NCBI RefSeq assembly: GCF_000721705.1
Contig: NZ_JOJL01000016.1
Coordinates: 1 to 64,000 of the forward strand
Reading direction: 5' to 3'
Length of the DNA stretch: 64,000 bases
Origin: Actinoplanes subtropicus
GTDB lineage: Bacteria > Actinomycetota > Actinomycetes > Mycobacteriales > Micromonosporaceae
Part shown: positions 48,448-61,728 of the stretch, piece by piece
Layout: each line of letters opens with the position of its first letter
How positions within the stretch are numbered: position 1 is the stretch's first letter
Notes under the pieces: generated by a model
Databases searched by the model: none
Seen by the model: the letters and a program-made list of their open reading frames with translations, nothing else
What the model was told of the DNA's origin: nothing
Program-made: the position numbers and the translations under genes

Positions 48448-49437
48448 ATGACGAGCGCGCCGCTCGAGCAGCGACGCCGGCTCCGGCCGTCCGGCGGGCA
48501 GGATCGGGTGTTCCGCATCATCCTGCGCTGTGCCGGCGCGGCCGTGCTGGTGCTGATGGTGCTGGTCGGCGCCTTCCTGTTCAGCAAGGCGATCGGGGCG
48601 CTGCGGATCGCCGGCTGGTCGTTCCTGACCACCGAGGAGTGGGAGCCCGACTCCCACCATTTCGGCATCGCCGCCGTGCTCACCGGCACGATCCTGATCG
48701 CCGGCGTGGCGATCAGCATCGCCGTCCCGCTGGCCACCGGCATGGCCCTGTACGTCTCCGAGTACGCCCCGGCCCGCGTGCGCCGGCTGCTGATCAACAT
48801 GGTCGACCTGATGGCGGCCGTCCCGAGCGTCGTCTACGGACTGTGGGGCTTCGCCTTCCTGCAGGGCAACGTGATCGGCCTGGCCCGCTGGCTGTCCACC
48901 TACTTCGCCTGGTTCCCGCTGTTCAAGGTGACCGGCTCCGACCCGCGCGACCCGCTGGCCACCGAGACGGTCTACACCTCATCGACGTTCATCGCCGGCA
49001 TGGTGGTGGCGCTGATGGTGACCCCGGTGATCTGCTCGATCATGCGGGAGGCGTTCTCCCAGGCCCCGATCGGCGAGCGGGAGGGTGCGTACGCGCTGGG
49101 CGCCACCCGCTGGGGCATGATCCGCTCGGTGGTCATCCCGTTCGGCCGGGGCGGCATGATCGGCGGCACGATGCTCGGCCTGGGCCGGGCGCTCGGCGAG
49201 ACCATCGCGGTCTACCTGATCATCTCGCCGGTCTTCGTGATCCAGCCGCACGTGCTGCAGAACGGCGCCAACTCGGTCTCCGCGCTGATCGCCCTGCGGT
49301 ACGGCGAGTCCGGCCCGGTCGCCCTCTCCGCGCTGATGGCCGCCGGCGTCGCGCTGTTCGTCCTCACCCTGATCGTGAACTTCGCGGCCGGCTCGATCGT
49401 GGCCCGCAGCCGCTCGGGCGCCGAGAGCGAGGCCTGA
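48448..49437 (+). CDS. pstC: Phosphate ABC transporter permease PstC
   Basis: 329 residues with six membrane helices. The family marks are EEWEPDSHHFGIAAVLTGTI, AVPSVVYGLWGFAFL, and the EAA coupling loop REGAYALGATRWGMIRSVVI before GLGRALGETIAVYLI. PstC and PstA form the membrane channel through which PstS-delivered phosphate enters, driven by PstB. It is first in a run of ten or eleven rightward genes; its TGA overlaps the pstA ATG. The order pstC-pstA-pstS with pstB far downstream is unusual, since pstS usually leads in actinobacteria. Confidence 0.95.
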   Translation: MTSAPLEQRRRLRPSGGQDRVFRIILRCAGAAVLVLMVLVGAFLFSKAIGALRIAGWSFLTTEEWEPDSHHFGIAAVLTGTILIAGVAISIAVPLATGMALYVSEYAPARVRRLLINMVDLMAAVPSVVYGLWGFAFLQGNVIGLARWLSTYFAWFPLFKVTGSDPRDPLATETVYTSSTFIAGMVVALMVTPVICSIMREAFSQAPIGEREGAYALGATRWGMIRSVVIPFGRGGMIGGTMLGLGRALGETIAVYLIISPVFVIQPHVLQNGANSVSALIALRYGESGPVALSALMAAGVALFVLTLIVNFAAGSIVARSRSGAESEA

Positions 49438-50654
49438 TGACCACCGTTCCGCATCTGGTGCCTGGGGTTCAGCCGGAACCGAGCGAGCCGGAGGAGCGCC
49501 GGGTCACCGCGACCGTCTCCGGCGCCGACGTCACGGTCGCGCTGGGCGCCCTGATCGCCGGGATCAGCGCCACCGCGTTGATCTACTACTGGCTGGCCCC
49601 GTTCTCCGGCTTGCTCGGCTTCGTGGTCGTCTCGTTCGTCATGTTCCTGGTCTTCTACGCCGCGCTGGTCTGGCTGGACGCCGACGGCCCGGCGGTCCGC
49701 GACCGGCTGGTCGGCGCGGTCGTGCACGGGCTGGCCGCGCTGCTGCTCCTGGCCCTGGTCTGCGTCGTGAGCTTCACGGTGTGGAAGGGCTACCGGGCGC
49801 TGGTCCACTGGAACTTCTTCACCCAGGACCTGCAACTGGCCGGGCCGCTGCAGCCGCTGACCGTCGGCGGCGCGCTGCACGCGGTGGTCGGCACGCTCGA
49901 GCAGATCGGCCTCGCGCTGGTCATCACGGTGCCGCTGGGCCTGCTCTGCGCGCTGTTCCTCGCCGAGCTGCGCGGCGGCTTCACCCGCTTCGTGCGGACC
50001 GTGGTGGAGGCGATGACCGCGCTGCCGTCCATCGTGGCCGGTCTGTTCATCTACGCCGCCGTGCTGCTGATCCACGACGAGCAGCAGCGTCTCGGCCTGA
50101 ACCTGCACTTCGACAAGTCCGGCCTCGCGGCGTCGCTGGCGATCACCGTGATGATGCTGCCGATCATGATCCGGGCCGCCGACGTGGTGCTGCGCCTGGT
50201 GCCGGGCAACCTCAAGGAGGCGTCGCTCGCGCTGGGCGCCAGCCGCTGGAAGACGGTACGCACGGTGGTGCTGCCGACCGCCCGGCCCGGCCTGGCCACC
50301 GCGATCATCCTGGCCACCGCGCGCGGCGTCGGGGAGACCTCGCCGGTGCTGCTGACCGCCGGGTACACGGCGGCGCTGAACGCCGACCCGTTCCACGGGC
50401 CACAGGTGTCGCTGCCGCTGGCCACCTTCACCCTGATCAAGTCGCCGCAACCGAACGTGGTGGCCCGTGGCTTCGGCACCGCGGCGCTGCTGCTCGCGCT
50501 GGTCCTGATCCTGTTCCTCATCGCCCGGCTGGCCGGCGGTCGCGCCCCGCAGGATCTGTCGCCGCGGCAGCAGCGGGCGCGCGCCCGGCAGTCGGCCCGC
50601 GACGTGTCCCGCTTCGCCCGCCGTATGCGCACCACCAGAAAAGAGGAACAGTGA
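49437..50654 (+). CDS. pstA: Phosphate ABC transporter permease PstA
   Basis: 405 residues, longer than the usual 290-300 because of two or three extra N-terminal helices (VTVALGALIAGISATALIYY, LLGFVVVSFVMFLVFYAALV). The core has the PstA marks: VVGTLEQIGLALVITVPLGL, MTALPSIVAGLFIYAAVLL and the coupling loop EASLALGASRWKTVRTVVLP ahead of ATARGVGETSPVLLTAGYTA. It pairs with PstC. The start overlaps the pstC stop and the stop lies two bases before pstS. Confidence 0.94.
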   Translation: MTTVPHLVPGVQPEPSEPEERRVTATVSGADVTVALGALIAGISATALIYYWLAPFSGLLGFVVVSFVMFLVFYAALVWLDADGPAVRDRLVGAVVHGLAALLLLALVCVVSFTVWKGYRALVHWNFFTQDLQLAGPLQPLTVGGALHAVVGTLEQIGLALVITVPLGLLCALFLAELRGGFTRFVRTVVEAMTALPSIVAGLFIYAAVLLIHDEQQRLGLNLHFDKSGLAASLAITVMMLPIMIRAADVVLRLVPGNLKEASLALGASRWKTVRTVVLPTARPGLATAIILATARGVGETSPVLLTAGYTAALNADPFHGPQVSLPLATFTLIKSPQPNVVARGFGTAALLLALVLILFLIARLAGGRAPQDLSPRQQRARARQSARDVSRFARRMRTTRKEEQ

Positions 50655-50656
50655 CC

Positions 50657-60899: not shown

Positions 60900-60912
60900 T
60901 CGAGGAGCTACC

Positions 60913-61728
60913 GTGACCGAAACCCAAGTCATGCCGGCGGTGTCCGCCTATGACGCCGTGGCGCTCGACGCGCACTCGATCTCCGCCTGGTTCGGCCAGC
61001 ACAAGGTCCTCGACCGGGTGTCGCTGAGCATGCCGGCCCGGATGGTGACCGCGCTGATCGGCCCGTCCGGCTGCGGCAAGTCGACCTTCCTGCGCATCCT
61101 CAACCGGATGCACGAGCTGATCCCGACCGCGTCGCTGGCCGGCGAGGTGTGGCTGGACGGGCAGGACATCTACGACCCGAGCGTCAAGGTCACCGAGGCG
61201 CGCAAGAGGATCGGGATGGTCTTCCAGAAGCCGAACCCGTTCCCGGCGATGTCGATCTACGACAACGTGCTGGCCGGTCTCAAGCTGACCGGCACCCGGG
61301 CGTCCCGCGGCGACAAGGACGGCCTGGTCGAGGAGTGTCTCACCAAGGCGGGGCTCTGGCGCGAGGTGCGGGAACGGCTGCGGCAGCCGGGCGGCGCGCT
61401 CTCCGGCGGGCAGCAGCAGCGGCTGTGCATCGCGCGCTCCCTGGCCGTACGCCCGCAGGTGTTGTTGATGGACGAACCGTGCTCGGCGCTCGACCCCACC
61501 TCGACCCGCCGGATCGAGGAGACGATCGGGGAGCTGGCCCACGAGGTGACCATCGTGATCGTCACGCACAACATGCAGCAGGCCGCGCGGGTCTCCCAGC
61601 AGTGCGCGTTCTTCCTGGCCGAGCAGGGCACGCCCGGGCACATCGTGGAGCACGGCCCGACCGACAAGATGTTCAACGAGCCGATCGACCCCCGCACCGC
61701 CGACTACGTCAACGGCCGCTTCGGGTAA
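60913..61728 (+). CDS. pstB: Phosphate ABC transporter ATP-binding protein PstB
   Basis: 271 residues from a GTG with GAGGA upstream. Walker A GPSGCGKST, FLRILNRMHELIP (the PstB hallmark NRMND/E-type turn), Q-loop MVFQKPNPFPAMSIYDNV, signature LSGGQQQRLCIARSLAV, Walker B VLLMDEPCSALDPTST and H-loop VIVTHNMQQAARVSQ. It powers phosphate uptake with PstC and PstA, more than 10 kb upstream in the same run; no phoU is in the window. Placement at the end, with surface-protein genes in between, suggests all are expressed together under phosphate control. A terminator follows at once. Confidence 0.96.
   Translation: MTETQVMPAVSAYDAVALDAHSISAWFGQHKVLDRVSLSMPARMVTALIGPSGCGKSTFLRILNRMHELIPTASLAGEVWLDGQDIYDPSVKVTEARKRIGMVFQKPNPFPAMSIYDNVLAGLKLTGTRASRGDKDGLVEECLTKAGLWREVRERLRQPGGALSGGQQQRLCIARSLAVRPQVLLMDEPCSALDPTSTRRIEETIGELAHEVTIVIVTHNMQQAARVSQQCAFFLAEQGTPGHIVEHGPTDKMFNEPIDPRTADYVNGRFG

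Follow-up and report, generated by a model that had tools for sequence, protein, structure and literature searches.

In a 64,000-nucleotide stretch of the Actinoplanes subtropicus genome (contig NZ_JOJL01000016.1; hereafter the window), a phosphate-uptake operon encloses a catalytically dead sortase, two additional PstS-like proteins and a group of surface proteins. The operon lies at 48448..61728, where eleven genes, all on the + strand, form one run from pstC to pstB; the host genome amounts to 11.26 Mb in 215 contigs. Across the relatives compared, PstCAB, PstS1, PstS2 and the dead sortase make up the constant set; PstS3 is almost always present as well, and the wall-binding proteins are frequent extras. 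We read this arrangement as a second Pst importer organized as an envelope-anchored complex, which in Actinoplanes and its near relatives, at least, is probably switched on when phosphate runs short, and we give this reading slightly less than even weight.

The component on which this reading turns is the product of 59892..60899 (+), which has a sortase fold (PF04203, 55.2 bits against a cut-off of 26.6) and predicted long helices, one N-terminal and two C-terminal. A first-pass annotation of the window had called it a pseudosortase, and its residues bear this out. With the catalytic triad of sortases taken to be His, Cys and Arg, the His is replaced by Arg172 (60405-60407), the Cys by Ala231 (60582-60584) and the Arg by Val241, a position set by eye from an active sortase (L088). 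The Cys is missing in 120/120 homologues (120 listed of 870, with 84 in one alignment and 28 in another) and in 80/80 loci, the His is missing in 120/120 homologues and 79/80 loci, and the Arg position holds V, I, L, A, S or T in all rows. The closest named homologues among the listed matches belong to Paractinoplanes and Actinoplanes. Activity through another nucleophile was rejected, as the Cys position is mostly Ala and otherwise Thr, Gly or Ser. A protein of this kind might instead be a sensor: phosphate or a polyanion would bind to R155, R156, R172, R209 and R225, and the state of the pump would be reported to a regulator. These positions, which include that of the former His, show almost no variation (77-81 of 81 rows, with R172, R155 and R156 falling within the patterns by which the loci were found) and are also retained in the 84-protein alignment; however, Pfam detected no signalling domain on the dead sortase and no regulator gene lies within the run, and we consider a sensor unlikely. 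Elsewhere in the same genome, a sortase-domain gene (L093, contig C42) has no Cys at its TLVT motif (LTLVTRG) and has the His. In another genome (G286; L133 / L158), an active-looking sortase with His and Cys matches through the C-terminal extension and may stand close to the ancestor from which the dead group arose.

The association of the dead sortase with pst genes extends well beyond this genome and is found in many actinobacteria, contrary to the restriction to one genome that the first-pass annotation had named as refuting its view. When genome contigs were scanned with the sortase-fold family and the best 80 of 437 relatives kept, the loci lay in genera that include Paractinoplanes, Phytohabitans, Amycolatopsis, Streptomyces, Micromonospora, Jiangella, Cryobacterium and Kineosporia (79/80 locus titles are actinobacterial; L034 is titled 'uncultured bacterium'). 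Genes matched at more than 100 bits lie on a single strand in 80/80 loci, and pstB is next to the sortase, meaning that the two frame ends are at most 2.2 kb apart, in 76/80 (the exceptions are L022, L030, L036 and L049). Loci cut by contig ends were excluded from upstream counts, so that 51/80 had more than 9 kb upstream and 52/80 more than 6 kb on both sides. All 51 contain pstS1 and pstS2 matches, at 200 bits or above except for a pstS1 edge fragment in L048 (33 bits), and pstS3 is present in 47 and missing in L005, L059, L065 and L081. DUF916 was detected in 42 of the 52; over all 80 loci it stands upstream of the sortase in 39 and downstream in 14, with no match in the remaining 27, of which many are short.

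Of 296 genomes of the phylum searched with a profile, 9, this genome included, have the dead sortase, at about 165 bits or above; ordinary sortases follow below that score. A pst gene lies within about 1.5 kb of the dead sortase in 8 of the 9, and the ninth locus (L125) stops at a contig edge. No pst match above 60 bits was found at the 21 lower-scoring sortase loci fetched, which are a portion of the next-ranked matches; three of them gave 45-57-bit ABC cross-hits to PstB. In wider stretches the dead sortase is retained with pst genes in several gene orders, and the ordinary-sortase stretches L158 and L159 have no pst match above 44 bits. The sporadic presence of the dead sortase would suit a chance neighbourhood or hitchhiking, but its tight linkage to pst in many genera and several gene orders contradicts this; we rejected the explanation and find it scarcely credible. 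We also rejected WxL/DUF916 as the core of the system, given the 42/52 count, the variable position of DUF916 and four rearranged loci (L154-L157) that have no WxL or DUF916 match and retain the dead sortase and PstS-fold proteins. As a separate observation, Streptomyces odonnellii (L012) has two such pst clusters in tandem, the second incomplete at the end of that locus sequence.

PstC (48448..49437, +; TIGR02138, 244.7 bits, cut-off 196.45) and PstA (49437..50654, +; TIGR00974, 200.2 bits, cut-off 193.45) are phosphate ATP-binding cassette (ABC) permeases above their NCBIfam cut-offs, and the closing gene pstB (60913..61728, +) encodes an ATPase (PF00005, 114 bits) that is 55% identical to the product of the other pstB in the genome. 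The receptor PstS1 (50651..52267, +; TIGR00975) scores 206.4 bits, barely exceeding the NCBIfam cut-off of 205, and retains the RSDGSGT signature; it has a hydrophobic N-terminus, a long linker and a predicted C-terminal transmembrane segment at residues 507-525. PstC, PstA, PstB and PstS are thus all present, and pst genes stand at both ends of one rightward run in the order first described. Like the PstSCAB importer, the operon has the two permeases, the ATPase and a PstS with RSDGSGT; unlike it, the operon adds two PstS-like proteins, the dead sortase and surface proteins, and has receptors with C-terminal transmembrane segments.

The two additional PstS-like proteins had been noticed from the outset, and each is assigned on evidence of its own kind. 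PstS2 (52264..54642, +; 792 aa) is weak by sequence, with 42.7 bits to TIGR00975, far below the cut-off. Its identity as a PstS-fold protein is settled by the predicted fold, which spans residues 269-695 and is followed by a disordered linker and a predicted C-terminal transmembrane segment; no match was found for the N-terminal part at residues about 35-268. The RxDGSGT signature is missing in 45/47 PstS2 sequences (46 of 57 usable rows plus the window). Among the names listed in public sources, proteins of this type appear as 'hypothetical protein' or 'PBP domain-containing protein', in a search with 2009 matches in all, some of which need not be PstS2. PstS3 (54768..55748, +) is assigned as PstS-like from weak profile matches (TIGR02136, 19.9 bits, E 3e-4, far below the cut-off; best E 7e-5 to phosphate receptors in the PDB), has no C-terminal transmembrane segment and is probably secreted. 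Its anion site appears altered: in an alignment of the window with 25 of 71 PstS3 rows, read by eye, the Asp56 position is an invariant Ser and Arg135 is missing. The numbering of Arg135 and Ser139-Thr141 is what we take to be that of PstS; Asp56 is also numbered so in a PDB title. Directly 5' of the pstS3 start, at 54750-54767 and in relatives, a leader like AAAAGGATAgCCGCA looks alike by eye across genera.

PstS2 and the dead sortase both keep their folds and have lost the residues of their usual jobs, a pattern that points to structural roles within a single complex. We regard it as a tentative possibility, held with slightly less confidence than the anchored importer itself, that an ABC importer recruited a dead class-E-like sortase as a true subunit, with loss of catalysis and gain of membrane helices, and that this subunit and the signature-less PstS homologue form the scaffold that holds the receptors of a wall-anchored Pst complex in several actinobacterial lineages. 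In the anchored importer as we read it, PstCAB would be the pump, and PstS1 would be the phosphate receptor, kept near the membrane by its long linker and C-terminal helix with no lipid. PstS2 and the three-helix dead sortase would be structural subunits bound to the membrane, there to hold receptors above PstCA or to position them. The groove that once received the sortase substrate no longer serves catalysis and may grip an extended stretch of chain, for example the linker of a receptor or a sorting-signal peptide; PstS3 would serve as an extra secreted receptor, and in many species WxL, WxLIP and LPXTG/LAXTG proteins would tether the assembly to peptidoglycan. Compared with the class E sortases S. 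coelicolor SrtE1 (5cuw) and that of S. avermitilis (5go5), the dead sortase has all three catalytic residues replaced, bears two extra long C-terminal helices and is tied to pst genes. A literature search that did not extend to subscription papers found no published description of the combination of pst genes, dead sortase and surface proteins. If true, the model would show how nutrient receptors are organized outside the membrane in thick-walled Gram-positive cells, and it would give the sortase fold a conserved non-catalytic role and PstS2-type proteins a function.

Starvation control is suggested by an 11-nt direct repeat (ATTCGTCCGTC GTTCACATAAC) at 48348..48369 (+), which begins 100 bp 5' of pstC. 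The available text of PMC7866108 and PMC4415409 gives the known form of the PHO box as two 11-nt units; the window and near relatives have one good and one weaker unit. The element was read across the upstream regions of 12 relatives, with 6 rows aligned, the window included. The repeat TTCGTCCGTNGTTCAC occurs 5' of pstC with 0-2 mismatches in the window and L095, L096 and L097 (Actinoplanes group), L102 (Amycolatopsis), L104 and L105 (Pseudonocardiaceae) and L106 (Saccharothrix), and the GTTCAC half is retained in Catellatospora (L100, L101). A 16-mer of the element is unique in the whole genome at up to one mismatch. We regard it as an unproven PHO-box-like element that is limited to one part of the family; PhoP would be the candidate regulator there. 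The genome also has a canonical system, in which its other close pstB adjoins a canonical pstA. The canonical PstS has a lipobox (LAAC, by eye), and its gene is preceded by GTTCACCACGC GTTCATTTCCG, with a score reached by 0/500 shuffles; this pair strongly resembles the S. coelicolor repeats gttcacccggc/gttcatttacg printed in the available part of PMC3004843. Two or more pstC matches that reach 1e-40 were likewise found in 12/12 relative genomes chosen from the 80. The first-pass annotation had proposed a wall-bound scaffold that gathers phosphate, or a phosphorylated ligand, or passes it to the transporter. Of this, a surface-anchored phosphate system is a fair reading, given the predicted anchors and the PHO-box-like element in close relatives; its placement of WxL and DUF916 at the core did not stand.

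Several observations weigh against the importer complex as we read it. One locus (L032) retains the catalytic His, and the patterns used to find the 80 loci include the former His position, so that His loss there is partly selected; the 120-protein set and the loci of the 296-genome scan are free of this selection. In a sortase tree of 27 of the 81 dead rows, eight from the phylum scan and 26 labelled active, a single origin of the dead group appears in only 2% of bootstrap trees because L132 is placed outside the dead branch. Among the rows labelled active, L093 is without Cys at its motif and L139 and L142 carry Asp in place of the His; L092 has no row in the tree. The dead sortase is also sporadic (9/296 genomes). 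With regard to control, two-unit PHO scoring placed the best match at the element in 9/12 sequences (L098, with masked N, was omitted), with shuffle p values of 0 to 0.10 for these nine and 0.45 to 0.99 for L099, L103 and L105, all to be read as non-independent since the sequences are related; the value for the window, 0.074, is weaker than the result for canonical pstS. At up to 2 mismatches, the element is absent from 13/13 further pstC upstream regions taken from the 80 loci. In 1.39 Mb of loci, a looser pattern was matched 8 times in forward and 5 times in reverse orientation, against 6 times for the reversed control, and together these results indicate that the element is not a general feature. 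The sole exact forward copy in the 1.39 Mb lies in Saccharothrix in the pstS2-pstS3 gap, before pstS3 (L021:3838-3853).

The ligand is a further point of doubt. The Asp56 position of PstS1 is Glu in 50/52 sequences, the window included, and the ligand may thus not be plain phosphate. The operon could then encode an importer for another oxyanion or a phosphorylated ligand presented by the extra PstS-fold proteins, an idea that would also accommodate the altered site of PstS3, the lost signature of PstS2 and the presence of a canonical pst system in the genome. It has to be set against the scores of PstC, PstA and PstS1, which exceed phosphate equivalog cut-offs, the retention of RSDGSGT in PstS1 and the PHO-box-like element in close relatives, and we judge it possible but doubtful.

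The surface proteins carry predicted membrane and wall anchors. The WxL-like protein (55774..57354, +) and its DUF916 partner, both recognized in the first pass, exceed their Pfam cut-offs by small margins. The former combines an N-terminal domain shared within the operon, two Ig stretches (Big_3_5, PF16640) and a C-terminal WxL-like domain (PF13731, 27.5 bits, narrowly above 25); the dual Trp-x-Leu motif is not kept in that domain, which has just two Trp residues, in GWNV and GWTP. The DUF916 or WxLIP-like protein (57425..58426, +; PF06030, 29.2 bits, cut-off 27.3) is the sole match to this family found in the genome and has a predicted C-terminal transmembrane segment at residues 298-316. 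DUF3324 was not detected after DUF916 with Pfam at E 0.1; a weak CARDB-like stretch stands at the place expected for it, possibly a diverged second domain. Next follow P8 (58413..59084, +), a small protein with the shared domain, a predicted C-terminal transmembrane segment and no Pfam match, and a protein (59098..59895, +) in which the shared domain precedes a Thr/Ser-rich stalk and an LPKTG sorting signal encoded at 59773-59787. These last two had been described as paralogs; they do share a domain, and the count was understated, as the WxL protein makes three. The domain, of about 110 aa and with no Pfam name, is 38-59% identical among the three proteins (P8 44% and the LPKTG protein 59% to the WxL protein), and a profile rebuilt twice found it in 55/80 relative loci at the third search. 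Where DUF916 is missing, the middle genes of some loci encode other Ig or shared-domain proteins with an LAXTG end.

In the available part of PMC10599100, WxL and WxLIP (DUF916-DUF3324) proteins belong to surface clusters of Firmicutes, and that part, which concerns DUF916/WxL function, mentions neither phosphate nor sortase. The window resembles those clusters, as far as that part describes them, in placing a DUF916 domain with a C-terminal transmembrane segment beside a large WxL-like protein. It differs in that DUF3324 was not detected, no second Pfam WxL was found among ten proteins scanned, the dual Trp-x-Leu is not kept, and the pair lies inside a pst operon, frequently and not constantly. 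The Ig, WxL and LPXTG proteins and the variability of the middle genes would also be expected of a device for adhesion or mineral binding at the surface, placed in a pst operon only so that both are regulated together when phosphate is scarce. The rearranged loci L154-L157, however, keep the dead sortase and PstS-fold proteins with no WxL or DUF916 match, which makes such a device distinctly improbable.

Within the run, neighbouring genes overlap or are separated by less than 30 bp, except at two gaps. The distances are -1 bp for pstC/pstA, -4 for pstA/pstS1, -4 for pstS1/pstS2, 125 for pstS2/pstS3, 25 for pstS3/WxL, 70 for WxL/DUF916, -14 for DUF916/P8, 13 for P8/LPXTG, -4 for LPXTG/sortase and 13 for sortase/pstB. 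As first reported, each long gap holds a strong hairpin. That in the 125-bp gap (CTGTGGCCAGGAG/CTCCTGGCCACAG, 54659..54690, +) is perfect; a like stem occurs in four other Actinoplanes-group loci examined (L002, L003, L004 and L006), Catellatospora L055 has altered stem bases with one mismatch, and the same gap in L078, L009 and L021 folds differently. The hairpin in the 70-bp gap before DUF916 (57368..57397, +), examined in the window, has a 13-bp stem, and the RNA fold of that gap is predicted at -36.5 kcal/mol. We rejected the hairpins as simple terminators, as no T-run was seen. They flank pstS3 and the WxL gene, which encode the two surface proteins of the window without a C-terminal transmembrane segment, and may possibly raise the level of these two proteins.

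Upstream of the run, a small open reading frame at 47954-48301 (+), 5' of pstC, has a weak DUF1508 (YegP-like) match (17 bits, cut-off 22), and several relatives have comparable small frames that end directly 5' of pstC, judged by eye. Farther upstream, at 44325-46664, frames that by eye resemble fragments of a histidine kinase and of a MacA/MacB-type exporter look as if decayed or deleted.
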